Below are positions 33,201 through 49,208 of a stretch of 55,309 nucleotides of DNA, piece after piece. Below the pieces are notes generated by a model that ran no database searches, was not told where the DNA came from, and worked only from the letters and a program-made list of their open reading frames with translations. How positions within the stretch are numbered: position 1 is the first letter of the stretch; each line of letters starts with the position of its first letter. A program made the translations under genes and the position numbers. Source of the DNA: Brasilonema sp. CT11 (lineage in GTDB: Bacteria; Cyanobacteriota; Cyanobacteriia; Cyanobacteriales; Nostocaceae); the NCBI RefSeq assembly GCF_017982655.1, contig NZ_JABXYX010000046.1, positions 1-55,309 of the forward strand. The letters run 5' to 3'.

Positions 33201-34050
33201 GAATGAGTTGGGGTATGTAAGGTTGTTTAGTGATGACGTGCTTGCGATAGAGGAGAATTCCGACTACTGGCTTTTGGATTTTAGATCCCCCCAACCCCCC
33301 TTTCAAATTAGATCCCCCCAACCCCCCTTGAAAAGGGGGGCTAATATTCTCCTGTTTATAAGCAGGGCGAGGAGGAATCTGTTGATACCATTCCAGATAT
33401 GCCCGTGGTGATTCAAAAAATCCTTGATAGTCGGGATGTAACAACCCCATATTCGGGGTTTCGACTGGCGGGGGAATTTCGCCCACCTTGAGACTTAAAT
33501 ATTTTTCTGCCAATGTCCAGAATAAAGCAGCAACGTTTTCTGGTCCACCAGCATTCCAGTAACCATATATAATTAGCCAGTTGCGTAAGTCTTGTACTTT
33601 TTGCCCTGGCACATATTTCAATAGCTTTGGTCCTACTTTTAAAAAGCTAATATAACCCGCGAGTTTATCTTCCTCTCGTCCGTTGCTGAATTTATCCAAG
33701 ATGAATTTTACTGGTTTGGGCATTCCTTTGGGTTTATCGCCAATGGCGAAAGCGCCCAACTTGGTTAAACTCAGCAATTCCAAAGCGGACTCAAACACGA
33801 GGCGGATGGGGATATGGGAGATGCAATCGCGCAACCACAACACCTGATCATAGTCAAACAGCAAACTGCCAAAAAACACATCAGCATCTTTTAGTGCTGC
33901 TTCTACTTCAGCGCGTTTGGTGGTGATGTCGCGATCGCTAAACACGCTAATATCCAACTCACTGACACGAGAAGTCGCCAAAAAAGCTGCCTTCCGATAC
34001 AAGTCGGCGTTGAATGATTCAAACCCAGCAATTAAGACGATACGTTTCAT
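30289..34050 (-). CDS. Mg-chelatase subunit H-type protein (ChlH/BchH/CobN family)
   Basis: A 1253-residue protein. The N-terminus (MKRIVLIAGFESFNADLYRKA) and the segments NWLIIYGYWNAGGPENVAALFWTLA, MHGTVEWLPGSPLGNTG and VMLWGLDAIKTKGESLG match ChlH/BchH. These are the porphyrin-binding subunits that insert Mg into protoporphyrin IX with ChlI and ChlD. Canonical ChlH is about 1330 residues and begins differently, so this is probably the second cyanobacterial paralogue; a CobN-like cobalt role cannot be excluded. Residues about 236-256 (SPPFQGGLGGSNLKGGLGG) are encoded by an inserted genomic repeat. The promoter side holds a STRR block. Confidence 0.75.
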   Translation of the reverse strand: MKRIVLIAGFESFNADLYRKAAFLATSRVSELDISVFSDRDITTKRAEVEAALKDADVFFGSLLFDYDQVLWLRDCISHIPIRLVFESALELLSLTKLGAFAIGDKPKGMPKPVKFILDKFSNGREEDKLAGYISFLKVGPKLLKYVPGQKVQDLRNWLIIYGYWNAGGPENVAALFWTLAEKYLSLKVGEIPPPVETPNMGLLHPDYQGFFESPRAYLEWYQQIPPRPAYKQENISPPFQGGLGGSNLKGGLGGSKIQKPVVGILLYRKHVITKQPYIPQLIRNFEEAGLIPLPIFINGVEGHVAVRDWMTTDYEQGQRQQGNVEIASLSQEAVKVDAIVSTIGFPLVGGPAGSMEAGRQVEVAKRILTAKNIPYIVAAPLLIQDIYSWTRQGIGGLQSVVLYALPELDGAIDTVPLGGLVGEEIYLVPERVQRLIGRVKNWVALRQKPVSERKIAIILYGFPPGYGAVGTAALLNVPRSLLKFLQALKDQGYTVGDLPEDGEELIRKVKEADELSGEDKQDEENIVPSSVNVRTLEKWLGYLRTSRIEKQWKSLTGTGIKTYGDEFNIGGVEVGNVWIGVQPPLGLQGDPMRLMFERDLTPHPQYAAFYKWLQNEFAADAVVHFGMHGTVEWLPGSPLGNTGYSWSDILLGDLPNLYIYAANNPSESMLAKRRGYGVLISHNVPPYGRAGLYKELVTLRDLIAEYREDPQKNYALKEAICKKIVDTGLDADCPFEDARRLGIGFTPENVRMFSGHAFDDYLVKLYEYLQVLENRLFSSGLHVLGEKPSEEELAGYLEAYFGNEPQRRREHREEEEEEKRIRELLMQTTDELTNLVRGLNGEYIPPAPGGDLLRDGVGVLPTGRNIHALDPYRMPSPAAYARGREIGQKIIAQHLEENGTYPETVAVMLWGLDAIKTKGESLGILLELVGAEAVKEGTGRIVRYELKPLAEVGHPRIDVLGNLSGIFRDSFVNVIELLDDLFGRAAEADEPQDQNFIRKHALALKAQGVENVSARLFSNPAGDFGSLVNDRVVDSNWESGDELGDTWQGRNVFSYGRQDKGQARPEVLTQLLQTSDRIVQEIDSVEYGLTDIQEYYANTGGLKKAAEKQRGKKVTTSFVESFSKDTTPRNLDDLLRMEYRSKLLNPKWAEAMANQGSGGAYEISQRMTALIGWGGTADFTDNWVYDQAADTYALDAEMAQKLRKANPEAFRNLVGRMLEAHGRGFWEAGEDKLQKLRELYELTDEELEGVTV
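33284..33349. repeat. GATCCCCCCAACCCCCC repeat inserted in frame in the chelatase gene
   Basis: Two copies of a GATCCCCCCAACCCCCCTT unit, followed by GAAAAGGGGGGCT, form a palindromic repeat. It adds about 21 residues (Gly- and Pro-rich) without breaking the reading frame. Relatives of the repeat lie at 37387-37512 and 43833-43870. Confidence 0.8.
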
Positions 34051-34124
34051 GTGTTGAGATAGAAAGCTAATGGTTTTCTATCTCTATATTGTGACCGATA
34101 ATTCCGAACAGCGTACAAGCGCCC

Positions 34125-34330
34125 AACAGTTATCAGTTATCAGTGAGCCAGCGCTGCAGGAGGGTCTCCCAACCTAGGCGACTGCGTTAGCGCAGCGGAA
34201 CCGGAGGTTCTCCCCGAAGGGTTATCAGGTAGGAAACGGACTCGTCCACCCCCTGCTCCCTGTGCTCCCTGCTCCCTGCTCTCTGTTCCCTGTGCTCCCT
34301 GCTCCCTGCTCCCTGCTCCCTGTTAAGCGT
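34125..34330. repeat. STRR block with GTTATCA and GCTCCCT units
   Basis: It starts with GTTATCAGTTATCAGTGAG, includes a palindromic middle (GACTGCGTTAGCGCAGC), and ends in many 7-base units such as GCTCCCT and GTTCCCT followed by GTTAAGCGTTCAC. It separates the chelatase gene's start from the CHAD gene's end. Confidence 0.8.
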
Positions 34331-35299
34331 TCACACCGGATGTAGTATTGTTGTATGAAATCTTTGTCTTGTCTGGACTTTCAGATACTGCTGCTGTAAA
34401 GGCTGCCATTGCTGCCATAATTTGTAACGATTTTGGGCGAACATTGAAGCAAGAGTCGGCAGTTGAGAATCTATTTCTGAGTTAAACACATCTGCAAGCC
34501 AGTCAGCTAAGACTGCGCTATCTTGCATTGATCCCAATATCTCTTGGAGATTTTTCACTTCTGCAATACAATTGGTATAAGACTTGCTATATAAATCAGA
34601 AAATAACTCCATCTGGTAGCGCAGACGTTTGGCTTGTTTGCGTAAGCTGTGAAGAATTTCCCCATTGGTTGCTAATTCTTGCTCTACTCTTTGGGGTTCC
34701 CAGTCTCTACAAATAACAATCTCCCCTCCCTTTACTTCGGTTCCAATAAGCCAACCTGGATGCAGTAAAAATGTACTAACTTCCGGCAAAAGTAAATCTG
34801 GTAGCACTTGCTGAATTGGCAAATATGCTATTGGTTGATAGGATGGCTCCTCTAACCACTCATTCAATTTCTGTTTAAGAGACTTGTAAGGATCATTCTT
34901 GAATGTTGATTTGACATCTGCCACAGCCTCTTCACGTTGTTTGCTTAAAGCTTCCATTGCTGTTTGCAGCGTTCGCTGTTCTTTGCGGGGTAAATCTGAT
35001 TGCTCAAGATTTTCCAAACTTTCTTTTAGCACGTCTAAATCCCGCAAATTACCCAGACGACGCGCAATTTTGCCGATATTTTTATCACTAGCTGGCTTTG
35101 GCAAATCCACAGCCGGGGAAAACCTTGTTACAGCTGTGCGTAGGCGACGCATCCCAACTCGCATCTGATGCAATGCTTCTGGATCTTTATCTTTCTTGAC
35201 TTCTGTTTCCCACTTTAAGGTTTTTTTACTATGTTTTTCAATTGCTGAGTAAGCATAGTTTCCGAGAGTTTCGACTTCTGATTTTATAGCTAATGTCAT
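34331..35299 (-). CDS. CHAD domain protein
   Basis: A helical protein of about 322 residues from ATG 35299. The CHAD core shows the conserved His/Arg set: EALHQMRVGMRRLRTAVTRF, then IARRLGNLRDLDVLKE, then LRKQAKRLRYQMELF. CHAD domains bind inorganic polyphosphate through these positive residues and often follow CYTH phosphatases, which is not the case here. An in-frame start at 35377 adds 26 residues (rich in Lys and Arg) that do not match the family, so the later ATG is preferred. It stands alone, facing away from the DUF3616 gene. Confidence 0.85.
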   Translation of the reverse strand: MTLAIKSEVETLGNYAYSAIEKHSKKTLKWETEVKKDKDPEALHQMRVGMRRLRTAVTRFSPAVDLPKPASDKNIGKIARRLGNLRDLDVLKESLENLEQSDLPRKEQRTLQTAMEALSKQREEAVADVKSTFKNDPYKSLKQKLNEWLEEPSYQPIAYLPIQQVLPDLLLPEVSTFLLHPGWLIGTEVKGGEIVICRDWEPQRVEQELATNGEILHSLRKQAKRLRYQMELFSDLYSKSYTNCIAEVKNLQEILGSMQDSAVLADWLADVFNSEIDSQLPTLASMFAQNRYKLWQQWQPLQQQYLKVQTRQRFHTTILHPV

Positions 35300-35523
35300 A
35301 CGTCTTGATACACATCTTGAATGAAAGTACTTAACTGGCTGACGTGATTGAATGGTAGCATTTTTTTTCTTTCTCATCTATGTTTTGTAAAGTTTTTATT
35401 CGCAAATATTTTGTAGAATTTTGTTGTCAGAAGTTAGTTGTCGTCATTTTTTTAAATAGAAACACTGAACAAAACGTTATATCAATAACACGTTAGAATA
35501 AAAAAACATCGGGAGTATATACA

Positions 35524-36591
35524 ATGGACTATTCACATCGAATCAATCAAGTTTTACTAACTTTTGCTGATGGTTTTAAAGAATATCGTAACGACCTTTC
35601 GGCAATCCTACTAACCCCTGAGAAGCACTTATGGTTGGGTTCGGATGAAACCTCAACTATTGAACGGCTATCTTTTGTAGATACAGAAAACTTTGCCGAA
35701 CATAAACAATTTCACGTCACAAGCTTTATCAGCTTACCTGCACCAGAAGAAGAGGAAATTGATATTGAAGGTTTGGCATATACTGATTATTATCTATGGT
35801 TAATTGGTTCTCACAGCTATAAACGTAAAAAACCGAAACCGGAATTTTCGGATGAGAAAAATATTAAAAGACTCGCCAAAATAGCATCAGAACCAAATCG
35901 TTATATTATAGGACGTATTCCACTGGTGGATGGTGAATTATTATCATCATGTCAACATCCAAAAAATCCTAACGTACAATTAAGTGCTGCCAAACTTGAG
36001 GTAACCCAACAAGGTAACTTACTCATGGAAGCTTTAGCAGATGATCCACACTTGGGCTTTTTTGTGAAAGCAGCAATTCCAGGTAAGGATAATGGTTTTG
36101 ATATAGAAGGAATAGCCGTTTGTAAAAACAGAATTTTTCTAGGTTTGCGTGGACCTGTATTACGAGGTTGGGCTATCATTCTGGAAATAGAGTTAGAAAA
36201 CTCAGGTTCAGGACTTCTGAGATTGAAGAATATTACGGCTGATGGCAAGGGATACAAGAAGCATTTTCTCTTCTTGAATGGTTTAGGAATTCGAGATTTA
36301 TGCTTAGAAAGTGAAGACTTGTTAATTTTAGCAGGACCAACAATGGATTTGGATGGTCCTGTGCAAGTTTATCGTCTGAAGAATGGCGCTGATTTACAAG
36401 AAAATATTCTCAATTATCCAGAGTTTGTCCTTGATATCCCATATGGAAATAGAGACGAACACGCGGAGGGAATAACTTTATTTCATGATATAGCTGGGGT
36501 ACCTTCACTACTAACAGTTTATGATTCTCCGGCAAAGAATAGGTTGGTAGGAGATGGTGGTGTACTGGCTGATGTTTTTAAACTGAATTGA
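35524..36591 (+). CDS. DUF3616 domain protein
   Basis: A 355-residue protein of the DUF3616 family, a probable beta-propeller: SAILLTPEKHLWLGSDETS, EIDIEGLAYTDYYLWLIGSHS, GFDIEGIAVCKNRIFLGLRGP and HAEGITLF. The repeated D-I-E-G-(L/I)-A blocks recall phytase/esterase-like propellers that bind metal ions, but no reaction has been shown. There is no signal peptide. A GGGAG ribosome site lies ahead of the ATG. A terminator that works in both directions follows. Confidence 0.82.
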   Translation: MDYSHRINQVLLTFADGFKEYRNDLSAILLTPEKHLWLGSDETSTIERLSFVDTENFAEHKQFHVTSFISLPAPEEEEIDIEGLAYTDYYLWLIGSHSYKRKKPKPEFSDEKNIKRLAKIASEPNRYIIGRIPLVDGELLSSCQHPKNPNVQLSAAKLEVTQQGNLLMEALADDPHLGFFVKAAIPGKDNGFDIEGIAVCKNRIFLGLRGPVLRGWAIILEIELENSGSGLLRLKNITADGKGYKKHFLFLNGLGIRDLCLESEDLLILAGPTMDLDGPVQVYRLKNGADLQENILNYPEFVLDIPYGNRDEHAEGITLFHDIAGVPSLLTVYDSPAKNRLVGDGGVLADVFKLN

Positions 36592-36596
36592 AAAAT

Positions 36597-36630
36597 AGAG
36601 CAAGACTGTTCCCAGTCTCGCTCTGTTTTT
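36597..36630. terminator. Bidirectional rho-independent terminator
   Basis: A hairpin with arms AGAGC-A-AGACTG and CAGTCT-C-GCTCT around a 4-base loop, followed by GTTTTT on the plus strand and by ATTTTT on the minus strand. It lies between the convergent DUF3616 and flavodoxin-like genes. Confidence 0.85.
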
Positions 36631-36638
36631 ATTAAAGT

Positions 36639-37229
36639 CTAGTTAACCCAACGTTTTGTTACCTCTGCAATGCGTTGTCCAAAGCGTTCTGAGGTGAGGC
36701 GATCGCCTGGATCTATTTCTGCTTCCTTACCGCTCATATCAAGTGGAACATAACCCATGACGCCTAAATATGCACCGAGTCGGTTAATTCCATCATCCTT
36801 ACCGAACAAAAAGCTTGACAAGTCTCCCACGTTTACCCAAATCATACCGTGTTGAGCCGCGTTTGTTGCTAAATATAGCAGTGTTCCTTGCTTATCGCCA
36901 CTGGGAGAGCTAGAGTGCGTAAACCCTGCAGCGATTTTATCTTTCCATCCGTGTTGAAACCAAATTCCGCTACCTGCATCAATAAACGCTTTAAACTGAG
37001 CTGCAACACCACCCATGTAAGTAGGTGAACCAAACACAATTGCATCAGCATTATTAAGCTTTTCTATTGTTGCATCATCCTTCCAACGACCATTTACAAT
37101 TTGCTCGCCAACAATCCGCAAAACCTCAACAGTGGTACCTTCAACTTTGCTTGCACCTTCAGCAATAGCTTGAGCCATAAGGTGAGTATGACCAGCACCG
37201 GAAAAGTAGACAATTGCTACAGTGGGCAT
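36639..37229 (-). CDS. Flavodoxin-like / NAD(P)H:quinone oxidoreductase family protein (WrbA-like)
   Basis: A 196-residue flavoprotein. The N-terminus has the phosphate-binding loop YFSGAGHTHLMAQA, followed by DAIVFGSPTYMGGVAAQFKAFID for the flavin ring, and SSSPSGDKQGTLLYLATNAAQHGMIW, as in WrbA-like FMN reductases. These proteins transfer electrons to quinones or act in redox protection. The gene is monocistronic, with its end at the shared terminator. Confidence 0.8.
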   Translation of the reverse strand: MPTVAIVYFSGAGHTHLMAQAIAEGASKVEGTTVEVLRIVGEQIVNGRWKDDATIEKLNNADAIVFGSPTYMGGVAAQFKAFIDAGSGIWFQHGWKDKIAAGFTHSSSPSGDKQGTLLYLATNAAQHGMIWVNVGDLSSFLFGKDDGINRLGAYLGVMGYVPLDMSGKEAEIDPGDRLTSERFGQRIAEVTKRWVN

Positions 37230-37678: not shown

Positions 37679-38773
37679 TCAGTCCAATGGTGTGTAAATA
37701 TCTTCCGAGTTAGGATTGAGATAGGGACGCTCTATGTCAAGCCCCAACCGCTCAAAGTGTTGGATAATATATTTCATCCGAGCATCTGAAGATTCATCAC
37801 CGTTTTGATGAGCTTCAAGCATTGCATTGGCAACAATTTCGCAGCGGTTTTCTCCAAACTGTTGTTGATTTACAAACTTGAGTTCAGAAGCAGGAAATTC
37901 GGCTAACCCAATACCAGGTGCGAGTACCTTGGTAAATATCGGAACCTGCTCCCGAAAATCAGATTTATTTTCTGCATAAATCGTCTGTAAGACTGGTAAA
38001 AGAATTTCTTTGTATCGGTAAGACTCATCTGGATTATAAGAAAACTTGAGAAATCCTGAGTTATACAACCTGTAGTTCAAAGGGTTGTGTAATACCTCGA
38101 AGGCGAAGGGGACTTTAAGTTCATTCAATTTTGTCGTTAAATATTTCATAGCCCAAACAGCAGCTTCCGGACTGAAGTTGAAGTAAACAACTATTCCCTC
38201 ACTGTGAAATTTCATAGGCGGTAAACCACCTACACCATCGCCATTTGCTCTATACCTATTTCCATTAATAAAGCTAGAAGGTAACAATACTGCTACTGGA
38301 TCGTTTACAGTAGCTGATTGCAAGGATAATGGAAGATGACGTTCTCGCTGGATGTGTTGAATGAAAGTATCAAATTCTGCGGCTAGACTACCATCAGCTT
38401 CCTGTCTAAGGATGTGGTATCCTGGGTGAAAAAAACCTCTCCCATGATTGTTTTCGTCCAGTTTTTCATAAAAATCCCAGTTTATTTCTCTGGAATCTAT
38501 TTCTTGTAGAATTTGTTCGTTCGTCTTAATTCCTGGGCTGACTTCTGTTGTACGCGAACCTTCAAAGTAAATGCTACATATAAATTTTAATAACTGAGAA
38601 TTTAAATATTTATACTGGATATCCTGAGGCATTTTTTGTAGTTGTGCCACAGTAGCAGCAGGAGTTTCTATAGGAGGATAGTCAGAATGACTGATGCGTA
38701 ATTCGGAGAACTCTATTTGAATGTTGTCAGCAATATCGTGTAAAGTCTCCTCTAAATTAGGTGGTAATTGCAT
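37679..38773 (-). CDS. HopA1-family lyase, LxmY/TvaD-like (copy A)
   Basis: A 364-residue protein of the HopA1 effector family. Shared with copy B at 40780 are YFNFSPEAA, PFAFEVLHNPLNYRLYNSG, PIFTKVLAPGIGLAEFP and FGENRCEIVANAMLEA. In class V lanthipeptide and thioamitide pathways such proteins remove phosphate from phospho-Ser/Thr of a precursor peptide, giving dehydroamino acids, together with an APH-type kinase. Here the kinase (39200) and the precursor (40501) lie upstream on the same strand, with two repeat blocks in between. It is probably soluble; no signal or membrane segment is seen. An effector role, as in Pseudomonas HopA1, is less likely given the neighbours. Confidence 0.75.
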   Translation of the reverse strand: MQLPPNLEETLHDIADNIQIEFSELRISHSDYPPIETPAATVAQLQKMPQDIQYKYLNSQLLKFICSIYFEGSRTTEVSPGIKTNEQILQEIDSREINWDFYEKLDENNHGRGFFHPGYHILRQEADGSLAAEFDTFIQHIQRERHLPLSLQSATVNDPVAVLLPSSFINGNRYRANGDGVGGLPPMKFHSEGIVVYFNFSPEAAVWAMKYLTTKLNELKVPFAFEVLHNPLNYRLYNSGFLKFSYNPDESYRYKEILLPVLQTIYAENKSDFREQVPIFTKVLAPGIGLAEFPASELKFVNQQQFGENRCEIVANAMLEAHQNGDESSDARMKYIIQHFERLGLDIERPYLNPNSEDIYTPLD

Positions 38774-39199
38774 GATAGATTCTCTTACATTTTGTTATTG
38801 ACACAGTATTGAATCAGGGAGTTTTTCAATTTTGCAAAAATATGTTTGTCATTCTGAGCGTAACGAAGTGAAGCGAAGAATCTCGCAAGATGCTTCACTA
38901 CGCTACCCTTCGGGAAGCCGCCTTCGGCGTCTACGCTTCGTTCAGCATGACAGTAAACTTACACATTTGGGATACTCCCATCTTGCTCCCTATTTTATTA
39001 CCAAAGCGGGCAAGATGCCCGCACTACGAAATAAAATCAATTTAGGGAGCATCCTAATGCAGGCAAAAACGTGTTTGTCATTGCGAACAGAGCGAAGCGG
39101 AGTGAAGCAATCGCAAAGTCTAGATGCTGCGATTGCTTCGCTCCATTTCATTACGCTCGCAATGACAAAAGATGTTTTTACACATTTGGGATGCTCCCG
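38774..39199. repeat. Intergenic region with two GTCATT...GAAGC repeats and a GGGAGC-type inverted pair
   Basis: No gene is visible in these 426 bases. Dispersed repeats lie at about 38850-38952 and 39078-39168 (GTCATTGCGAACAGAGCGAA and CATTACGCTCGCAATGAC form inverted ends of the second). The words ACACATTTGGGATACTCCC (38960) and ACACATTTGGGATGCTCCC (39180) bracket the second repeat as near-identical copies. The block separates the two genes of pair A. Confidence 0.7.
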
Positions 39200-40345
39200 T
39201 TAAATTGACAGAAACTTCTCTGGCTTACACAGTAATTGTGTAGCAATGAAAAAATATAGCTCCTGATGATTTAAAGCCATCTCTGGCTGAAGTTGAAATT
39301 CTGCTAGGAGTTGATAAATCAAACCAAGTCCAGCAAACTGAACAACCCGCTTGAGAAATTCTGGATAATCTTCTAAAATATTTGGATAAGCATTAATATA
39401 AGCTTTTGTGATGGCTACAATTGAAGGACGAACAACTCCTAGAGGGATTGTGGCTAGCTGTATAGATTTTTTAATATCAATAGCAGGATGTACAATCATA
39501 CTATTGAGCCAGAAGAGAAAATAGCCAAGAATTGCTTTTCCTAAATCGCAAGCTGGATCGCCCCAACTACATGCTTCCCAATCAATCATCTTAATTAGGC
39601 TTTTATCACAATCCGGAATTTCCAATTCTAACTTCTCCCAATGTCTAGGTATGAAAATTTTCTGAAATTGAATATTATTGTGTGTTAAACAGCAGTGGCG
39701 ATGATTCAACACCAACTCTGTAACAATTTCCCTCACAACTTCAGATTGTTGAAAAATACCAATAATTCTCCAGGAAACAGCTTGAGTCTTCTTTAAACTC
39801 TCAGGTTCAATTCGGCTAACAAGATATTCAGAAAGATAATCAGGATAAGGAAGTTGGTAGTTAAGTTTAGATTCTTCCAATTTAGTCAAAAAAGTGTCGC
39901 ACCCCTGACAATTTATCGTCTGTGAATGTAGTTTTGCTAAAGTCGTTCCTACCAACTCTGCAAGCGCTATTGGGAAAGCTTCCTGATTTTCATAAAAACT
40001 TTGTAAGGTAATATAATCATTTGGGCATTTGTATATTAGTATCGAATTGCTGTCATCAAAATGCAGGACTTCTGGAATTAATGATGAAGCAGAATCTAAA
40101 TCTTTGTGAGACTGCAAAAAATTATCAAGCTTCCACTCTTTAGAAATTCTAACATCGTGATCGAGACTTCTATAATCAGGTGTCTGCTTAATAAATAGCT
40201 TCTCCTGCTTTTGAGGAATATCGATTACCCAAGAAAAAGTCTTGCTATTAACGTCAACTTTCAGATAGTCTAAGTCGTCTTTTTGAAATATAGCAGCATC
40301 AATTAAGTAATCAAATAAGTTTTTATAGTTAAGTGTGATAGCCAC
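39200..40345 (-). CDS. APH-type kinase, LxmK/TvaC-like (copy A), with degenerate catalytic loop
   Basis: A protein of about 381 residues of the aminoglycoside phosphotransferase fold. A GTG start at 40345 (VAITLNYKNLFDYL) aligns with the start of copy B (MTFVLSSQNIFNYL) and follows AAAGAAG; the upstream ATG at 40414 lies in a hairpin and is less likely. The Lys for ATP is in KLFIKQ, and the DFG-like IDWEACSWGDPACDLGK is kept. The catalytic loop reads HNNIQFQK (222-229) where copy B has HNDLKLNN: the base Asp is Asn and the metal-binding Asn is Gln. It is therefore probably inactive as a kinase or has a changed role. Confidence 0.75.
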   Translation of the reverse strand: MAITLNYKNLFDYLIDAAIFQKDDLDYLKVDVNSKTFSWVIDIPQKQEKLFIKQTPDYRSLDHDVRISKEWKLDNFLQSHKDLDSASSLIPEVLHFDDSNSILIYKCPNDYITLQSFYENQEAFPIALAELVGTTLAKLHSQTINCQGCDTFLTKLEESKLNYQLPYPDYLSEYLVSRIEPESLKKTQAVSWRIIGIFQQSEVVREIVTELVLNHRHCCLTHNNIQFQKIFIPRHWEKLELEIPDCDKSLIKMIDWEACSWGDPACDLGKAILGYFLFWLNSMIVHPAIDIKKSIQLATIPLGVVRPSIVAITKAYINAYPNILEDYPEFLKRVVQFAGLGLIYQLLAEFQLQPEMALNHQELYFFIATQLLCKPEKFLSI

Positions 40346-40410
40346 AAAAAGCTTCTTTATTCTTATCAGACGAGTGTGTTTTCTGGACTTGGTGAGTTGA
40401 ATTAAATAAA

Positions 40411-40440
40411 TCATAGAGTGGAGGTTAGCCCACTCTATGA
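40411..40440 (-). terminator. Hairpin between the precursor gene and kinase A
   Basis: A perfect 11-base stem, TCATAGAGTGG and CCACTCTATGA, with an 8-base loop, followed on the minus strand by TTTATTTA. It is a weak or partial terminator. In RiPP operons such sites let the precursor be made in excess over the enzymes; that role here is inference. Confidence 0.55.
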
Positions 40441-40500
40441 TTTAACTAGAGAAAATTAGTTTTCTGTTCCAAGTGTTAAGCTTTGGACAAGCAATTAAGG

Positions 40501-40695
40501 TTAATTACACAAAAGTAAGCTTATGTGGCTGGGACCACGAGTAAGATCGACTCCTCCTGTTACTTGAACTAATTCACTATCAGTCAGTTCATTCAATAAG
40601 TCTTCAGAATCGGCAAACAAGTCAGTTCCGGCGACTGGGACATCATTGACATCATTCTTGATGTTATTTGTGATGTTCTTATCTGTATTTTTCAT
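40501..40695 (-). CDS. RiPP precursor peptide with double-Gly leader, lanthipeptide-like core
   Basis: A 64-residue peptide from ATG 40695 (an in-frame TTG at 40737 would add 14). The acidic leader of 48 residues ends in LLNELTDSELVQVTGG, the classic ELxxVxGG leader pattern of double-glycine precursors. The core after GG is VDLTRGPSHISLLLCN, with one Thr, two Ser and one Cys near the end. Ser59 and Cys63 could form a five-residue ring after dehydration; Ser56 or Thr52 could give larger ones. The gene lies between two HopA1-plus-kinase pairs on the same strand and is followed by a hairpin. No C39 peptidase or exporter gene is adjacent. Confidence 0.7.
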   Translation of the reverse strand: MKNTDKNITNNIKNDVNDVPVAGTDLFADSEDLLNELTDSELVQVTGGVDLTRGPSHISLLLCN

Positions 40696-40779
40696 GAGTT
40701 GAGTGTTTTTTAATGTGTTCTTAATTACTATTATCAAATCCTTTATACAAAGTATTTATACCATAAGGAGTAAATTCCG

Positions 40780-41901
40780 TCACAAGTTCAACGGCGTATA
40801 TATGTCAACAGAGTTAGCATTGAGGTAGGAACGCAGCAATTCAACTCCCACTTGTGAGAATTGCTTGAGGATAAAAGTCATCCGCCCCTGGGGGGAGTTA
40901 TCAAGCGAGTGCCAAGCTTCCAACAAACCATTGGCAATAATTTGGCAGCGGTTCATCCCAAAGCTTTCTTGTTCTGCAAATTTTTGGTCTGGTTCCTCTG
41001 CTAAACCAAGCCCTGGTGCCAGGAACTTGGTGAAGAGGGGGATATCTGTGTGAAAATGCGCTTTTGTTTGTGCGTAGACACTCTCAAGCACCTGCCGGAC
41101 GGCTTCATAATTACTCTTCTCGAAATACAGGACTCCTGAGTCATAGCGCTTGTAATCACCTGGGTTGTATAGCACTTTAAAAGTAAAGGGAATTGAGATA
41201 TCGTTTAACTCGCGCGTCAGACTGTCCATAACCGCTGCTGCACCTTCTGGGCTGAAATTGAAGTAAATTCGCACGATTTCTGGCTGGCGGTTTGGATGAG
41301 TATAACTTCGTGGTCCTGCATTGCTCACTGCCATGTAGAACCCGCTTTGCACAAAATTTTTCGGCATTCGGATAGCTACCAACTCACCTACAGCGGCAGA
41401 TTGTTCGGCGAGTTGCAGATGCTTCTCTGGTTCAATGTATAAAGTTAAACCGCCCTTGGTTACAGCAAGAGTGCCATCACTTTCTTGCCTCACCACACAC
41501 CAACCTGAGTCAAAATAGCCGCTGCCTTGATTGGACGAGTGCAACCGTTCGTAAAATGCTATATCTACTCCAAGGCGGGTGTTATTTTCTAAATCCTGCT
41601 GGAGTGCCAAATTATCTGAATCGGCATTTGGTGCGAAAGCTGCTCCCATAGAACCGTTGTAATAGATACCGTAGAGAAACGATCGCAGTTGCAAGCTAAA
41701 ATACTTCTTCTGAATCTCCGCAGGCATTTGCTGGAAGCGGGTGACTACCTCATCTGGTAATTCCCAAGGTTTGTAATTTGGATGGCTAATAGAGAAGTTG
41801 GAGTGGATTTGCACATTGCTGACGATATCTTGCAAAGTATCCAGCAGTTGTTGTGAAGCAGAATCTGGCTGTTGAGTTTGAGAAGAATTTTCTAGTTGCA
41901 T
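40780..41901 (-). CDS. HopA1-family lyase, LxmY/TvaD-like (copy B)
   Basis: A 373-residue HopA1-family protein. Conserved parts are SGYFDSGWCVVRQESDGTLAV, IYFNFSPEGAAAVMDSLT, PFTFKVLYNPGDYKRYDSG, PLFTKFLAPGLGLAEEPD and SFGMNRCQIIANGLLEAW. Family function: elimination of phosphate from phospho-Ser/Thr in the precursor, in concert with an LxmK-type kinase (here 42264). It ends 84 bases before the precursor start at 40695, so precursor and enzyme pair B can share a message. The first 30 bases of the gene are part of a 49-base direct repeat with a second copy at 42125-42173. Confidence 0.78.
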   Translation of the reverse strand: MQLENSSQTQQPDSASQQLLDTLQDIVSNVQIHSNFSISHPNYKPWELPDEVVTRFQQMPAEIQKKYFSLQLRSFLYGIYYNGSMGAAFAPNADSDNLALQQDLENNTRLGVDIAFYERLHSSNQGSGYFDSGWCVVRQESDGTLAVTKGGLTLYIEPEKHLQLAEQSAAVGELVAIRMPKNFVQSGFYMAVSNAGPRSYTHPNRQPEIVRIYFNFSPEGAAAVMDSLTRELNDISIPFTFKVLYNPGDYKRYDSGVLYFEKSNYEAVRQVLESVYAQTKAHFHTDIPLFTKFLAPGLGLAEEPDQKFAEQESFGMNRCQIIANGLLEAWHSLDNSPQGRMTFILKQFSQVGVELLRSYLNANSVDIYTPLNL

Positions 41902-42173
41902 ATTGTTTCGTCGCGATTAAGTAGGTGGGCGGGAAAATTTATCGGTGTGTCATTGCGAGCGAAGCGAAGCAATCCCAGTCATTGCGAACGAAGCGAAGCA
42001 ATCCCAGTCATTACGAACGAAGCGACAGCGTAGTGAAGCAATCCCAGCCCTTGCGATTGCTTCGCTCCACTCTGTTCCGCTCGCAATGACAATTCATAAC
42101 TTGGGTTTGATATAAATTACACATTTGAGTTTGAGAAGAATTTTCTAGTTGCATATAGTTTCGTCGCGATTAA
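41872..42173. repeat. 49-bp direct repeat flanking a GAAGCAATCCCAGTC tandem repeat
   Basis: Bases 41872-41920 and 42125-42173 are identical except for one base (GCATATTG against GCATATAG). Between them lie three units of about 32 bases starting CATTGCGAACGAAGCG or similar and ending GCAATCCCAGT, then an inverted end (GCTCGCAATGACA). The first copy spans the start codon of copy B of the HopA1 gene, so the 5' end of this gene has been duplicated around a repeat insertion. Confidence 0.8.
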
Positions 42174-42263
42174 ATATCAATCTGGGAGCATTCCAAATGC
42201 AAAAAGACCTGGCGATTATAAATCGCGGCTACACAGACAAAGCCTGCCTCCGCAGGCTAAAGA

Positions 42264-43484
42264 TTAGTCCGCGAAGGCGGACTTCGTTTGTGTAGCCCCA
42301 GACTTCCAGTCTGAGGGCAATTTAGTCCCAAACTGAGTGAGTTCTGTCGCTGCAGTTCCGAAAACAGTCGCTAAGGATTGTTCCGGACGACATAACAAAC
42401 TCTTGGCAACCTGAAGCATACAAATCCCTTTGTTGCCAAAAGATTTTTCGTACTGAATCATTGCTTGAATTTGTTGAATTAATGCTAAACCAGCAAATTG
42501 CACGACTCGCAGCAAAAAATTGGGGCGATGCTCTAAAATCTCCGGAAAGTTATCGAAATAAGCGCTAGTCAAAGCAGCAATGGAAGGTTGAAGCTGTTCT
42601 AGGGGTGTCATAGCCAGACGCAGAGATTCTTCGATAGTTAGAGACTTACTAATGACTAAGCTACTCAGCCAGATTTGCAGGTAGCTGGCAATCAGCGTTC
42701 CTAAATCAAAGGCAGGATCTCCCCAAGAAGAACGCTCCCAATCAATCAGCCGTACAATGTTGGGAGTTTCTTGCTGCCATTCTTGCTCCCAATTATTGTG
42801 TAGGAGAATGTTGTTGAGTTTGAGATCGTTGTGAGTCAGGCAACAGGGTTGGAAAGTATCGGCAAGTTCTCTCATTGCTTGCCCTAAGCTTTCGTATCGC
42901 TGATAAAGCTTAAAGAATTTCAGCCCATCAGCAGGAACTATACCAAAAATTTCTGGTCCAATCCGTTCTATACTACGAATCCAGTTAGGTACATGAGCAG
43001 GGCTGAGATTATTAGGTTTTGCCGAGAAGAATTCCTGATACTCTTGGCGGTTGAAAGTGGCTCGATGGATGGTGGCGAGAATGGTGGCGATCGCCTCGCC
43101 AATTTGAGTTGGGAAAACATTCTCGTTCCCGTAGAAATTTGCTAAATCCCGATAGTCATCCAAGTAGCTGAAAACAATGATAGAATGTTGCGCCTCAAAA
43201 TGAAGCGCCTCTGGCATCCAAGCTCGAAGGTAGCTAAGTTCTGAAAATGTTTGTAAAAACTCTTGAATTCGCCATTCACTCAAAAACTCGCCCGCTGTTT
43301 TGCCTTCTTGATTGTGTCGTTCTTGCTTAATCAGTAGTTTCCGACTTTCTGGCAAAGTCAGTAATAAGTTAAAGTTTTTTGCTCTTATCGGTTTAACTTG
43401 ATACAGATCTGACTCCAACTGAGTACAGAGTCTATGCTCAACTAAGTAGTTGAAAATATTCTGAGAACTTAATACAAATGTCAT
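42264..43484 (-). CDS. APH-type kinase, LxmK/TvaC-like (copy B), catalytic residues intact
   Basis: A protein of about 406 residues from ATG 43484 (MTFVLSSQNIFNYL); the frame extends upstream to 43595, but that part is repeat-derived. Features of the aminoglycoside phosphotransferase fold: LLIKQ with the ATP-binding Lys, the catalytic loop HNDLKLNN at 218-225 with base Asp220, and metal-binding Asp248 in IDWERSSWGDPAFDLG. In class V lanthipeptide and thioamitide biosynthesis this kinase phosphorylates Ser/Thr of the precursor so that the HopA1 partner (40780) can eliminate it. The C-terminal tail comes from CTGGAAGT-type repeat DNA and may not belong to the original protein. Confidence 0.78.
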   Translation of the reverse strand: MTFVLSSQNIFNYLVEHRLCTQLESDLYQVKPIRAKNFNLLLTLPESRKLLIKQERHNQEGKTAGEFLSEWRIQEFLQTFSELSYLRAWMPEALHFEAQHSIIVFSYLDDYRDLANFYGNENVFPTQIGEAIATILATIHRATFNRQEYQEFFSAKPNNLSPAHVPNWIRSIERIGPEIFGIVPADGLKFFKLYQRYESLGQAMRELADTFQPCCLTHNDLKLNNILLHNNWEQEWQQETPNIVRLIDWERSSWGDPAFDLGTLIASYLQIWLSSLVISKSLTIEESLRLAMTPLEQLQPSIAALTSAYFDNFPEILEHRPNFLLRVVQFAGLALIQQIQAMIQYEKSFGNKGICMLQVAKSLLCRPEQSLATVFGTAATELTQFGTKLPSDWKSGATQTKSAFAD

Positions 43485-44161: not shown

Positions 44162-44566
44162 TCATAAATTAGTCGAAATTGCCTGCACCGGACAAGTGGG
44201 AATACATTGTTCGCAGACAATGCAGCGCGATCGCGTAAACGTCAGTTTATAACTTTCGGGATCAAGATTGAGAGCTTGTGTTGGGCAAACTCCTGTACAC
44301 AAGCCACAGTGGACGCAGGAATCTTCATCAATGGTGATTTCTCCTAAAGCTTGAGATACAGTGATGTTTTGCGATCGCATCCACTCAATCGCTGCATCCA
44401 ATTCATCAATATCTCCCGAGAGTTCCACCACCAGTTTACCGATTTGATTTGGTGCAACCTGAGCGCGAATAATATTTGCAGCAACGTTAAAATCTCTTGC
44501 CAATCGATAAGTGACTGGCATTTGGACGACACGTTTGGGAAAAGTCAGTGTGACTCGTTTTTTCAC
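44162..44566 (-). CDS. NIL-domain protein with two [4Fe-4S] clusters (ferredoxin-like)
   Basis: A 134-residue protein. Residues 1-75 form a NIL domain (VTLTFPKRVVQMPVTYRLARDF; AIEWMRSQNITV), a ligand-binding fold also found in methionine transporters. The C-terminal half has two cluster motifs, CVHCGLCTGVCP and CIVCEQCIPTCP. Such proteins are common in cyanobacteria and may serve in sulfur-amino-acid metabolism or as electron carriers; the role is not settled. A decayed fragment of a paralogue is at 37528-37606. Confidence 0.85.
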   Translation of the reverse strand: MKKRVTLTFPKRVVQMPVTYRLARDFNVAANIIRAQVAPNQIGKLVVELSGDIDELDAAIEWMRSQNITVSQALGEITIDEDSCVHCGLCTGVCPTQALNLDPESYKLTFTRSRCIVCEQCIPTCPVQAISTNL

Positions 44567-44654
44567 TTAGACCTCCGTAGGAGTGTGGAAGCCCTGCGTT
44601 TTTAAACCAGGGAGGAAACACGACTCAGGCAGTTTTAACTGCCGTCCAAATATC

Positions 44655-45929
44655 TTAGAACGCATACGAATAACCATCCTTTTTATGAATTGATGTGCAA
44701 AACTTGTGACTAATGCCAGCGACGCGACCCGTCTTAGTCGCAATATCAAAGCTGCCAGTTTTACGGCACAGTACGCGACCAGCATAGTGACCTATTTTCT
44801 TCCCAGAAGTGACTACGACTTTGGCGATATCGCCAGTTCTAAAACCGAAATGAACTTGTTTTCGCTCTCTGTGTCGAATCGGAAAACCGTATTTATCAGT
44901 ACCGCACATCTGGCGGGTTCCCCAACCAGTAGACTTGATACGCAATGGTTGTTGAGTCAATAGATTTAGCTTTTCGACCTCCCCAACACAAGCTGCATCA
45001 ACCCAATGAGACTTAGGCAACTCAAGCCTGGTTCGGTTGTATTTAGTTTGTCCGCCTGTACTCGTAAGCGTGGGTAAAATATTTTTTAAAGTGCGCAACA
45101 GCGCCCAACGAGTTGCATTGACTGCGGCGGCATCTTTCAATGACTGTTTAGCTTGGCACTTTATTTTTTCTAGTCTAAGCACGTCTTTCTTAAGGAACTC
45201 ATCTATAGATTTAGTTCCTTTTTTGATGTTGCATCGCTCACAAGACAAGGTTAAGTTCGATACTCTGTTACTACCTCCTTTCGCTCTGGAATGAATATGT
45301 TCTATTTGGAGTGGTGTATCTCCTATGTCACAATAAGCACATTTATCTCCCCATTTCTCCAGGAGATATTGACGTACTTCATACCCAGCAAGCTCACCTT
45401 GCTGATATTCAACACCGCTAACTTCTGGATTCTGCATTTTTTGAGTATCGAACTTAACTAACTCCATTGCGATGGATGTGATGGGTGCATAACGACAAAG
45501 CCTTTTCACCCAAGTTTCAACCGTGAGGACACGATGCATCAATGATGGGGCTAACCATCCTTCTATCCGTTTACGGTTATCAAAACGTGGTTGACGATAA
45601 CGGGTTTTACGCTTTCTACGACTACGACGCAACGAGCGTCTTGATTCCAAAGAGTCCTTGATCTGCCATCCCCTGTGTTCTAATTCCGCCGCCCAGATGG
45701 CATCGTCTCCATCTAAAACTGCAATTCCAGTAAACTTAGAACCTGGATCTAGCTTGATGGTTAATGGTCTTGGTGCTGGCGCTGGAACTGCGTGTTTAAG
45801 AATGACTGTGAACGGATACATTCTAAAGATCGCTGCTTTTTGCTTGGTTAGCAATTCTCTAGCTCGTGCCGGAGAAATTGGATTGAGAGGTTGTTTGTTG
45901 GTGTCTATAACAAATACAAAATTTTGCAT
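44655..45929 (-). CDS. iscB: IscB RNA-guided nuclease (RuvC with HNH insertion)
   Basis: A 424-residue IscB. Order of parts: N-terminal PLMP-type domain (QPLNPISPARARELL), RuvC-I with Asp61 (IKLDPGSKFTGIAVL), Arg-rich bridge helix (RRSLRRSRRKRKTRYRQPRF), RuvC-II with Glu156 (IAMELVKFD), HNH domain with C197/C200, IEHIH at 209-213 and C230/C233, RuvC-III with His308 and Asp311 (HWVDAACVG), and a C-terminal target-adjacent-motif domain. All catalytic residues are present, so the enzyme should be able to cut DNA with its omega-RNA. IscB is the ancestor-like relative of Cas9, carried by IS200/IS605-type (ISC) elements. No TnpA is nearby. Confidence 0.92.
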   Translation of the reverse strand: MQNFVFVIDTNKQPLNPISPARARELLTKQKAAIFRMYPFTVILKHAVPAPAPRPLTIKLDPGSKFTGIAVLDGDDAIWAAELEHRGWQIKDSLESRRSLRRSRRKRKTRYRQPRFDNRKRIEGWLAPSLMHRVLTVETWVKRLCRYAPITSIAMELVKFDTQKMQNPEVSGVEYQQGELAGYEVRQYLLEKWGDKCAYCDIGDTPLQIEHIHSRAKGGSNRVSNLTLSCERCNIKKGTKSIDEFLKKDVLRLEKIKCQAKQSLKDAAAVNATRWALLRTLKNILPTLTSTGGQTKYNRTRLELPKSHWVDAACVGEVEKLNLLTQQPLRIKSTGWGTRQMCGTDKYGFPIRHRERKQVHFGFRTGDIAKVVVTSGKKIGHYAGRVLCRKTGSFDIATKTGRVAGISHKFCTSIHKKDGYSYAF

Positions 45930-46165
45930 TGCTGCACTCCTGCGAGTAATGTTTGCTTCGACAAAGTTTAGGGTCGGTACTATCCAAACGACACTGGTTT
46001 AACCCATAAGCCTTGTTTAATCGTTCGGTTCTAGGGTTCAGAACTAGCAAGCATCCTGAAGTAGGTCTTTAACTCTTGCCCTAAACGGAGTACGTGAAGT
46101 ACTAAGTCTGGTCAACTAGGGCTTCCAGCAGGAAGCCCCCAACTTGAAGTCGGGGGTCGTTGACA
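45930..46165 (-). ncRNA. Probable omega-RNA and left end of the ISC element
   Basis: The 236 bases upstream of iscB are non-coding and rich in hairpins. On the minus strand they begin CGACCCCCGACTTCAAG and TTGGGGG (stem), continue with GGCTTCCTGCTGGAAGCCC (stem) and AGTACTTCACGTACT (stem), and run to just before the iscB start. In ISC elements the omega-RNA scaffold is encoded here, with its guide coming from the DNA just outside the left end, here about 46160-46185. Borders are approximate. Confidence 0.6.
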
Positions 46166-46440
46166 GTTTCATTTCGGGAGTTTCCCAAGCATTTGGGGAT
46201 ACATCCATATTTTATATCCGTGGTTTTACGAATTCACAGGAATGCCCAACGGAAATCACTGTTAAGCGTTCCCTATTCCCTGTTAAGAGCGATGCACTGA
46301 GCTTGCGTTACCCTGAGCTTTGTCGTTCGCGTAGCGAGTCCGTTCGGCGAAGCCGTGCCGCAGGCTCAGGACTCAGGGTCAAAGTGTTCCCTGTTCACTG
46401 TTCACTGTTAAGCGTTCCCGATCAGATAGGATTGCTATAG
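46166..46440. repeat. Repeat-rich intergenic region
   Basis: Contains GTTAAGCGTTCCCTATTCCC modules, a palindromic CGCGTAGCGAGTCCGTTCGGCG-type repeat (46329-46350) and a STRR end (TTCACTGTTCACTGTTAAGCG). No gene is visible. The promoter of txlA should lie in the last 60 bases before 46471, where TATAGT occurs at 46436-46441. Confidence 0.6.
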
Positions 46441-46470
46441 TACTTAATAAGTTTTAATAAAACTATATTT

Positions 46471-47061
46471 ATGAGTAACGATTCACCTGTTCATTCTCCA
46501 GAAACATCAGAATCCAAGTTTGGGACGCGCTTGAGGAATTTCTTAATCGCAATCGTGGCGATCGCCCTCAGCGTTGCCTTAATTTTGGGGCTGAGAACTG
46601 AGACAACCTCTGCAACTTTGTCTCAGCTAGATAAGCAGTCTACACCTTTTGATGTTGCTTTAACCAATGGTAAGCCATCGTTTGTGGAGTTTTATGCAGA
46701 TTGGTGTACTGTTTGCCAAAAAATGGCACCAGATATCGGGAAACTAGAACAGCAGTATGCTGGCAAGGTAAATTTTGTCATGCTGAATGTGGATAATACC
46801 AAGTGGCTGCCAGAGATGTTGAAATATCGGGTGGATGGCATTCCCCATTTTGTGTATATGAATCAGAAAGGGGAGGCGATCGCCCAAGCCATTGGTGATC
46901 AACCCCGCACTATTATGTCAAGTAACTTAGAAGCCTTAATTGCTGCTTCGCCTTTGCCTTATGCTCAAGCAAACGGCAGAGTTTCGCAATTTAATGCACC
47001 AGTCGCACCAACAAATAGTCAGGATGATCCCCGCAGTCATGGCGCTCAAGTGGCGAATTAA
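46471..47061 (+). CDS. txlA: TxlA/HCF164-type thioredoxin-like protein, membrane anchored
   Basis: A 196-residue protein. One N-terminal membrane helix (FLIAIVAIALSVALILGL, about 25-42) is followed by a thioredoxin domain with the redox motif WCTVC, EFYADWC, and the cis-Pro loop VDGIPHFVYM. This is the cyanobacterial TxlA, related to plant HCF164, which carries reducing power to the lumen or periplasm for cytochrome assembly. The C-terminal tail is disordered (NSQDDPRSHG). A strong terminator follows at 47094. Confidence 0.88.
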   Translation: MSNDSPVHSPETSESKFGTRLRNFLIAIVAIALSVALILGLRTETTSATLSQLDKQSTPFDVALTNGKPSFVEFYADWCTVCQKMAPDIGKLEQQYAGKVNFVMLNVDNTKWLPEMLKYRVDGIPHFVYMNQKGEAIAQAIGDQPRTIMSSNLEALIAASPLPYAQANGRVSQFNAPVAPTNSQDDPRSHGAQVAN

Positions 47062-47093
47062 AAGATTCGCAAATACCCACAAGCTATAAGTAC

Positions 47094-47115
47094 AAAGCCC
47101 GTGTGGGCGGGCTTT
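47094..47115. terminator. Terminator between txlA and a convergent gene
   Basis: A perfect 8-base stem, AAAGCCCG and CGGGCTTT, with a 6-base loop, followed by ATGTTTT. It lies between convergent genes and touches the stop of the gene at 47114, so it probably serves both. Confidence 0.8.
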
Positions 47116-47356
47116 ATGTTTTAACCTGATCCTCATATGATTCCAAAATCCCACTACGGATCATAAGCTGAGGCCAAATTATCAAAAAGAAACCCATCCA
47201 CGTCAGTACAGGCACACAGACAAGAATAGTTAACCAAACTGTCTTAAATATCACCCAGCTACCACCCATCAGCGTGATACCTGTGAGAAGAATAGACCAA
47301 GGCTGACACCACCACGGTTTGTATTTCCAAGGACTGAGAGGCTTTTGTTCAGACAT
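47114..47356 (-). CDS. Small membrane protein, DUF6737-like
   Basis: An 80-residue protein with PWKYKPWWCQPWSILLTGI at the start and two membrane helices (SILLTGITLMGGSWVIF; LTILVCVPVLTWMGFFLII). This Trp-rich small protein is found throughout cyanobacteria, and I recall it as DUF6737; its function is unknown. Length and order of helices are normal. It converges on txlA with a shared terminator. Confidence 0.7.
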   Translation of the reverse strand: MSEQKPLSPWKYKPWWCQPWSILLTGITLMGGSWVIFKTVWLTILVCVPVLTWMGFFLIIWPQLMIRSGILESYEDQVKT

Positions 47357-47467
47357 TTGTTTGACAGCGAATTTGCAAATATTCCTTCAATTATCACCAA
47401 ATATCTTAACTAATCTTAATTTATGTGTTGATTTTACAAAGATTTCATGCGTTCTGTTAAACCGCTC

Positions 47468-47860
47468 TCAATCAGGGCTGAACTGCAACGCTTGGTAGAT
47501 AGCTTCAGGATTGGCAGCAATAACCTTGAGGTAAGCCTTTGCTGTCTGATCCGGTTCGCTGCGTCCTTGCTCCCAGTCCCGCAAAGTGCCAAGCGGAATA
47601 TGGTAACGCGCTGCAAATTCCTCCTGTGTCAATTTCAACGCGCGACGCATGGTTTTAACGCGGGGAACACGTCTGGCGTTGCGTAATTCAGCTTCTGTCA
47701 TAGGGCGAGCATCAGGATCACTAAGAGCCGCAGCGTGAATTTCTTCTTCGGTCATGGGACGCATAGGCTGTTCTGGGAACGGTCGCTCGCTGCCGTCAGG
47801 CAATACCTCAACCACCGTCCCATCCTTGCGCATTCTCGCGGTAATAGTCGTTTCGTTCAT
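47468..47860 (-). CDS. BrnA-type antitoxin with XRE-like helix-turn-helix
   Basis: A 130-residue protein. The N-terminal half is variable (RMRKDGTVVEVLPDGSERPF; MTEEEIHAAALSDPDARPMTEAELRNARRVPRV). The C-terminal half is a helix-turn-helix: TMRRALKLTQEEFAARYHIPLGTLRDWEQGRSEPDQTAKAYL. This composition is typical of antitoxins that follow BrnT. The gene overlaps the end of the brnT gene by about 53 bases; a later Met (47833) would reduce the overlap. It should neutralise BrnT and repress the pair. Confidence 0.8.
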   Translation of the reverse strand: MNETTITARMRKDGTVVEVLPDGSERPFPEQPMRPMTEEEIHAAALSDPDARPMTEAELRNARRVPRVKTMRRALKLTQEEFAARYHIPLGTLRDWEQGRSEPDQTAKAYLKVIAANPEAIYQALQFSPD

Positions 47861-48113
47861 GCTTTTGTGCCTTTCTGGCTGATATTAACCGAATACGCTC
47901 TCCCCGTTCGGTATAGGTTACATGAAGCAGTACCCCGTCACACATACCAATCAGGTTGATACGCTCTTCTCCATAATTTTCACGCTCATCAAAGCGTTCT
48001 ATGGCAAAGTGATCGTCAAACGCTCTGATTGCCTTAGGAAAGCTGACACCATGCTTTTGCCAATTGGCAATTGCTTTGTCATTATCCCATTCAAAGTTCT
48101 GTGCATCATTCAT
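47808..48113 (-). CDS. brnT: BrnT-type ribonuclease toxin
   Basis: A 101-residue BrnT: FEWDNDKAIANWQKHGVSFPKAIRAFDD, then GEERINLIGMCDGVLLHVTYTERGERIRLISARKAQKHERNDYY. These include the W-x-x-x-K-A-x-x-N-x-x-K-H-G and R-x-I-S-A-R-x-A blocks of the family, which has an RNase-like (RelE-type) fold. The gene is the first of the pair with the antitoxin at 47468. It is close to the cytosine methyltransferase gene on the same strand, with about 100 bases between. Confidence 0.87.
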   Translation of the reverse strand: MNDAQNFEWDNDKAIANWQKHGVSFPKAIRAFDDHFAIERFDERENYGEERINLIGMCDGVLLHVTYTERGERIRLISARKAQKHERNDYYRENAQGWDGG

Positions 48114-48213
48114 AATATACGGGTTACCAGTAGTATTGTCAATTGTCTACTGCTAACGAAGCGTTATGGCAAATTTGACACAGTAACAGGGAGGAGCATT
48201 CCAGAGAGAGCGG

Positions 48214-49158: not shown

Positions 49159-49208
49159 CGTGAGTTAGGTAACTTATCTGTTGGTCTTTGGCGTTTATGT
49201 CGTATTTT

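Follow-up and report, generated by a model that had tools for sequence, protein, structure and literature searches.

The closest described relatives of the locus reported here are the class Va lanthipeptides (lexapeptide with LxmK/Y/X/D, cacaoidin and rosin), the thioamitides and kintamdin, in which a split kinase and HopA1 lyase are likewise accompanied by a second, dead kinase-fold protein tied to ring closure (RosX, TvaE, KinH). RosX has a kinase fold without kinase residues and acts as a cyclase for aminovinyl-methylcysteine (AviMeCys) (PMC12291118); related pathways contain the inactive kinase homologues KinH and TvaE (PMC9415263). Cyanobacterial kinase/HopA1 loci with double-glycine (GG) leaders have also been reported, as Family 1A (PMC8153245), as 'type-B' LanA (PMC9486802) and in PMC7794033. 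We analysed a locus of this kind in a 55,309-nt stretch of Brasilonema sp. CT11 (NZ_JABXYX010000046.1, positions 1 to 55,309; hereafter the window; genome G000). One kinase/HopA1 pair of this locus (pair B) keeps the checked catalytic residues of class V kinase/lyase dehydratases, and a second (pair A) has lost key ones. For pair A we computed residue loss, a single origin, co-inheritance, constraint, an association with Cys-containing cores and a motif. Pair A is best read as functionally like LanX, the type of protein to which TvaE belongs, and independently derived.

All five open reading frames (ORFs) that a sequence-only reading had listed are present on the minus strand, in the order kinase B, HopA1 B, GG-leader peptide, kinase A, HopA1 A:

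42264..43484, minus strand: kinase B, an APH-fold peptide kinase with the checked residues intact (beta3 Lys, HND-LKLNN loop, IDWE)
40780..41901, minus strand: HopA1 B, a predicted phospho-Ser/Thr lyase with R211, K242, R252 and Y259 intact (CaoY R187, K219, R229 and Y236)
40501..40737, minus strand: precursor peptide, start TTG 40737 or ATG 40695; leader end ...LTDSELVQVTGG, core VDLTRGPSHISLLLCN
40507..40530, minus strand: SxxSxxxC motif (SHISLLLC) of labionin type in the precursor core (motif definition, PMC11251773)
39200..40414, minus strand: kinase A, a pseudokinase, in which H245-N246-N247 replaces HND and the loop Asn is replaced by Lys
39674..39682, minus strand: degenerate catalytic loop of kinase A, H-N-N codons
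37679..38773, minus strand: HopA1 A, a pseudolyase, with V195, E226 and K243 at the positions of R, K and Y in HopA1 B

Profile searches placed both lyases in the HopA1 family, as had been proposed (PF17914, cut-off 22.7; 203 bits for HopA1 B and 137.4 bits for HopA1 A). The APH-type assignment of the kinases stood for kinase B (PF01636, 44 bits); kinase A, at 22.4 bits, fell slightly below the cut-off of 23.2, yet it matched the NCBIfam LxmK model (E 1.8e-17, 63.5 bits; kinase B, 81.2 bits). Both kinases stayed far short of the cut-off of 315 for the LxmK equivalog NF038156. Pair B has the stand-alone LanK (PF01636) and LanY (PF17914) required of class V, with the scores given above, and the class V residues (LanY R187/K219/R229/Y236, kinase HxD) are found in pair B and not in pair A. 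The idea of a class V-like split dehydratase is supported for pair B, with its residues intact, and not for pair A, with key residues lost. The view that both pairs are dehydratases fails: kinase A has HNN and no loop Asn, and HopA1 A carries V, E, L and K at the positions of CaoY R187, K219, R229 and Y236.

In CaoY, elimination is lost with K219A, nearly lost with R187A and inefficient with R229Q (PMC9486802). We transferred these sites to HopA1 B through the LxmY alignment and surveyed 122 HopA1s and 119 kinases from 109 locus records. The HopA1s occupy three states. The first contained 70 proteins with R, K, R and Y intact. The second comprised the 18 A-type proteins, all of which have lost R187 and Y236 and 13 of which have lost K219. 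The remaining 34 proteins form a third group with Q, E or H for K219; R187 is kept in 30 of them, and their partner kinases keep the catalytic Asp. All 17 A-type kinases are without this Asp, which each of the other 102 has retained, and two A kinases (L006 and L121) also lack most of the N-lobe. Because the distant pairs L114 and L115 are in the intact state, catalytic loss is most simply a derived condition. The third group is a clade of its own (SH-aLRT, the Shimodaira-Hasegawa-like approximate likelihood ratio test, 100) that contains L007, from contig C93 of the same genome, and 33 more; with an intact kinase and the lyase Lys replaced by Gln, Glu or His, it perhaps joins a kinase to a dead lyase partner and carries out phosphorylation without elimination.

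The A kinases form one clade (SH-aLRT 99), as do the A HopA1s (SH-aLRT 100), in trees from which the L114 and L115 rows were dropped beforehand and from which L113, a fused protein of 819 aa, was excluded by length. The two A proteins share a history, their distances being correlated over 17 loci (r 0.96; 0/2000 permutations as high). The HopA1 A and HopA1 B distances are correlated when all 14 loci are counted (r 0.69, 0/2000 as high) and not when a single locus of the window's group is kept (r 0.13, nine loci, 533/2000 as high); since the two histories disagree after this reduction of near-copies, the A pair seems to join different B pairs. One locus, L137 (G361 C265), combines an A pair with a Cys peptide, and the 19.5 kb fetched there contain no B pair. 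At this locus, a 331-aa ORF resembling TENA/haem oxygenase (13173-14168) lies just upstream of the Cys peptide beside kinase A. Elsewhere HopA1 B is split between two frames (L133, G418), and in L125 (G314) kinase and HopA1 are fragmented, by loss or assembly error.

Pair A is under purifying selection, much as pair B is. Median dN/dS (the ratio of nonsynonymous to synonymous substitution rates; Nei-Gojobori, 6-7 close loci each) was 0.327 for kinase A and 0.306 for HopA1 A, compared with 0.240 and 0.335 for the kinase and HopA1 of pair B. Certain residues are conserved in pair A: His309-Pro310 (16/17) and Cys172 (14/17) in the kinases, and His229 (14/18), His322 (14/18) and Lys/Arg243 (16/18) in the HopA1s. 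His229 and His322 of HopA1 A lie at sites where HopA1 B types carry Tyr and Trp.

A leader profile built from 13 seeds recovered one leader family beside the kinase/lyase pairs in 67 of 74 double (A-pair) and single-pair locus records, as expected of the GG-leader precursor of a ribosomally synthesized and post-translationally modified peptide (RiPP) that had been proposed. Leader peptides are present in 17/18 double and 50/56 single-pair records and in 0/35 third-group records, the last number including L146 (kinase only), which was placed in this group by default beside the 34 HopA1s. The expectation that the peptide is conserved with the enzyme genes was likewise borne out by a neighbourhood comparison, in which two further genomes of the genus carry the same five-gene block (HopA1 A identity 92 and 91%). 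The same precursor is present in G311, a second genome of the genus. The precursor is not a chance ORF, since its leader family recurs at related loci and the block recurs in the genus.

Among loci with a leader peptide, the core contains Cys in 17/17 double and 9/49 single loci (one-sided Fisher 1.2e-9, uncorrected for kinship); L122, the other half of the L121 locus, was reassigned by hand from single to double, which changed 10/50 to 9/49. Within the B-pair clade to which every double locus with a B row belongs, the counts are 15/15 and 8/21 (p 8.8e-5, again uncorrected for kinship). Of 31 double-locus leader peptides, 25 have Cys, and the six Cys-free ones lie outside the stretch between the pairs. 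Most single loci have Cys-free cores such as TLTKLAEAFV..AKSFS, which makes a thioether within the peptide impossible. That the dead pair accompanies Cys-containing peptides in some filamentous cyanobacteria suggests its re-use for closure of a sulfur ring.

At single-pair loci such as L068, L074 and L091, up to nine leader peptides stand in an array beside an intact dehydratase pair; the array cores are mostly Cys-free (pattern xLTKLAEAFVxVYAIxHVTxLAKSFS), and their products could contain dehydroalanine (Dha) or dehydrobutyrine (Dhb) with no internal thioether. Leader peptides near the pairs of L142, L052, L076, L082, L090, L098 and L148 carry LYGV/MYGV repeats and are of Nif11 type; in L142 they are accompanied by a radical SAM/SPASM protein, a combination that is spliceotide-like.

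The motif S-x-x-S-x(2-5)-C is that from which class III synthetases form labionin or lanthionine (PMC11251773), and nearly all labionin peptides are made by class III LanKC enzymes (PMC10604976). The window precursor contains this class III motif. In the orthologue group of the window (seven loci with precursors; an eighth, in G445, ends at a contig edge), all 11 Cys residues lie within S-x-x-S-x-x-x-C and the other core positions vary. Shuffled cores of this group gave a mean of 0.16 motif Cys and never reached 11 in 20,000 trials. At the other double loci 7/28 Cys have SxxSx(2-5)C-type spacing (shuffled mean 0.89, 0/20,000 as high; the L096 core was excluded from the motif count). No Cys of 17 has it in nine single-locus Cys cores, which says little because the chance expectation is 0.22.

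Compared with class III (LanKC; labyrinthopeptin type), the locus shares the motif and the predicted kinase plus phospho-lyase chemistry, and differs in having no LanKC, with kinase and lyase as separate ORFs, and no LANC_like match on the window's contig. It shares kinase and lyase with class Vb (LanK/LanY plus LanC), whose LanC is absent from the locus. In contrast to class Va and the thioamitides, the dead kinase is closest to cyanobacterial LanK and is paired with a dead HopA1. The window locus also differs from class Va in that it has no LanD (PF02441) and its Cys, which is followed by Asn, is not C-terminal. An aminovinyl-cysteine (AviCys) ring as in class Va was judged unlikely, because a C-terminal Cys occurs in 1/19 double-locus cores and there is no LanD at the locus. 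Family 1A (PMC8153245) and 'type-B' LanA (PMC9486802) appear to be loci of the same kind, with a cyanobacterial K/Y pair, a GG leader and variable cores; the Family 1A core reportedly conserves neither Ser nor Thr nor Cys (PMC8153245). In the passages compared, neither account mentions a second pair, catalytic loss or a link to Cys.

Kinase A has the LanX character of a kinase fold without the catalytic Asp, and as a degenerate kinase-fold protein it is the obvious functional counterpart of LanX. That it is a true LanX homologue finds no support in its sequence, in keeping with the sequence-only reading, which had seen no LxmX homologue. Its best NCBIfam match is LxmK, in a library whose inclusion of a LanX model is unchecked. 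A profile of the 17 A kinases against PDB sequences matched seven chains with E no higher than 10, among them PsiK as the best (E 0.00044) and LxmK (E 1.5) but not TvaE. AlphaFold models (mean predicted local distance difference test score 81.7 for kinase A and 89.0 for HopA1 A) matched LxmK (9dk1_A, E 8.9e-12) and LxmY (9dk2_B, E 1.1e-15) best by fold; for kinase A, LxmK ranked first and TvaE (PDB 8jsu) 50th. Most simply, pair A may be the cyanobacterial answer to the same need as RosX, made anew from a dehydratase.

We put at about even the chance that pair B dehydrates the core and that pair A, a pseudokinase/pseudolyase module, has found new use in guiding the Cys to ring closure. The leader would dock on the kinases. 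Kinase B would phosphorylate core Ser/Thr, and HopA1 B would eliminate the phosphate to give Dha or Dhb, by analogy with CaoK/CaoY and LxmK/LxmY. The Cys of S-x-x-S-x-x-x-C would then add to Dha, giving lanthionine, or labionin through a second enolate addition. Pair A, presumably a duplicated kinase/lyase pair that lost both catalytic sites and had its pockets rebuilt, would most likely be a heterodimeric cyclase or cyclisation guide whose kept C-lobe holds the leader, with Cys and Dha positioned. After cleavage of the GG leader, the product, a ribosomal peptide with a sulfur ring, would leave through a C39-peptidase ATP-binding cassette (C39-ABC) transporter encoded elsewhere in the genome. 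A bolder form of this proposal, to which we hold only tentatively, is that the pair was duplicated once in cyanobacteria and the two dead copies together gave rise to a new cyclase for thioether or labionin rings, heterodimeric and metal-free; this would place labionin-type rings outside class III and be the second independent turn of a kinase fold to cyclase, the first with a lyase-fold partner.

Several points weigh against re-use of pair A in ring closure. Every chemical step is our inference, and the exporter in trans is assumed. Of the residues conserved in pair A in the alignments, His229 is not A-specific, since it also occurs in 11/34 third-group HopA1s. Lys is retained at the K219 position in five of the 18 A-type HopA1s, and the A kinases keep the beta3 Lys (15/17) and the metal-site Asp (11/17), both of which RosX has lost (PMC12291118). 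Cys cores occur in the nine single-pair loci counted above without an A pair, and the labionin-type spacing is not universal (7/28 outside the window's group, 0/10 in the C348 type). On independent tree pairs the link between Cys and the A pair was not significant (three pairs, on average 2.1 for and 0 against); this test scored L096 as Cys-free although one L096 leader peptide has Cys, and because L096 lies in the other large clade the in-clade count of 15/15 and 8/21 is unaffected. Finally, lanthionine formation in rosin is described as substrate-controlled and merely accelerated by RosK-RosY (PMC12291118), so a dedicated lanthionine cyclase may not be needed.

The rosin result also favours a different role, in which pair A would assist pair B as a partner without catalysis of its own: it would bind the leader or the B heterodimer and tune processivity or shield dehydrated intermediates, and rings would close unaided in the B complex. 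In the CaoK model (PMC9486802) the leader is bound by the C-lobe, and this lobe is better kept than the N-lobe between A and B kinases (identity 0.38 vs 0.29), as this role would predict; however, it is also better kept among the B kinases (0.62 vs 0.56). The discordant HopA1 A and B histories speak against a partner of pair B, the L137 locus would be odd for a B subunit, and the newly conserved residues hint at chemistry. On balance we regard such a role as unlikely, if well short of far-fetched. Pair A might instead run another reaction on the Cys products (a non-thioether crosslink, epimerisation or self-protection) in place of lanthionine or labionin closure. The A-linked cores vary widely (SxxSxxxC, TxxxTC, SxxC, CCC), so there need be no ring type common to them all; yet in each of the 19 double-locus cores examined a Cys has Ser or Thr somewhere on its upstream side, as is usual for thioether substrates, and the adjacent dehydratase would supply the acceptor, which leaves another reaction distinctly improbable. 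We give very little credence to two active dehydratases with different substrate sites: the folds of pair A are kept, as are the beta3 Lys and metal-site Asp in the numbers above, but the catalytic Asp and the R187, Y236 and most K219 equivalents are gone, two of these kinases are without most of the N-lobe, and the corresponding CaoY substitutions K219A and R187A were severe. A functionless, decaying duplicate, to which the missing catalytic residues might point, is hardly credible: purifying selection (dN/dS ~0.3) contradicts it, and the single origin, the newly conserved residues and the uninterrupted frames of 18 HopA1 A and 17 kinase A copies also speak against it.

Candidates for a cyclase other than pair A are few. 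As the sequence-only reading had stated, there is no LanC, LanD or YcaO next to the cluster, and no exporter: a Pfam scan of the flanking ORFs (30289-37229 and 44162-50285) found none of the four, and whole-genome profile searches, which alone cover the rest of the window outside the five-gene block, gave no match to PF03412 (C39 peptidase), PF02441, PF05147 or PF02624 (YcaO) on the window's contig. PF02441 matches at three places in the genome, none on this contig. An FMN-reductase-like ORF (36639-37229) was rejected as LanD, since it matches PF03358 and not PF02441; its family occurs in 3/19 double records, all sharing the window's chromosomal place. A LanC acting in trans is also unlikely: the genome has a single LANC_like match, in a frame of 1122 aa (a size like that of LanM) on contig C81. 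The same contig holds the only YcaO match and one C39 match of the genome and is probably another RiPP region. Among ORF families of at least 90 aa exclusive to double loci (three or more loci), none exceeds 3/19 double records, and those at 3/19 are flanks of the window's chromosomal place; pair A is for this reason the only shared cyclase candidate. PpiC, C39-ABC, HlyD and helix-turn-helix (HTH) families each occur in 10/19 double records and many single ones; the 20-kb part of the window used in this comparison has none of them. The double records with the C39-ABC exporter family include L006, on contig C348 of the window's own genome, where ThiF, luciferase-like, PpiC, HlyD and C39-ABC genes stand alongside. 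The third HopA1 locus of this genome, the single pair on C93, has menaquinone-type neighbours (chorismate-binding, MenC-type, AMP-binding and 4HBT thioesterase).

Kinase B starts at an ATG at 43484, and kinase A probably at GTG 40345, judging from orthologue alignments, from which the two start options of the precursor also derive. A 52-nt direct repeat (96% identical; window 41872-41923 and 42125-42176) covers the HopA1 B start, and its copies bracket a series of 29-nt repeats, an arrangement that would fit duplication of the HopA1 B 5' end by an insertion. An RRXRR plus HNH endonuclease ORF (PF14239; window 44655-45929) adjoins the cluster; farther away, a gene for a BrnT-type toxin is accompanied by an HTH gene (window 47468-48113).

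A-type HopA1s were confirmed in at least 15 of 217 family genomes, with full A pairs in 14 of the 15 and, in G445, HopA1 A only, at a contig end. These loci are the upper HopA1 A matches; those below ~306 bits were fetched in part, with G331 and G364 among those left out, as were the identical duplicate contigs G406 C312 and G372 C164. Among named records, A-type proteins occur in 18/62 loci (19 were flagged, and L200, with an intact kinase, was set aside), in hosts that include Rhizonema, Nostoc, Scytonema, Roholtiella, Komarekiella, Calothrix and Mastigocoleus. These are mostly the same genomes as the 217 and not an independent sample; the contigs of the metagenome-assembled genomes (MAGs) of Moorena and Microcoleus are new, and one Moorena MAG contig has an A-type locus with a five-Cys core.

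Cyanobacterial kinase/HopA1 loci were already known; we recognised no description of a dead second pair in the literature searched, mostly outside supplements and subscription journals, nor any mention of one in the available text of PMC12141560, PMC12599244 and PMC13060819. How class V-type systems close rings without LanC has an answer so far only for AviMeCys, where the pseudokinase RosX does so. The question becomes directly testable with a whole dead dehydratase pair that accompanies Cys cores and has natural Cys-free relatives to serve as controls. If pair A does guide ring closure, it would be a case of an enzyme pair put to new use at another step on one leader peptide, and labionin motifs would reach beyond the LanKC enzymes.

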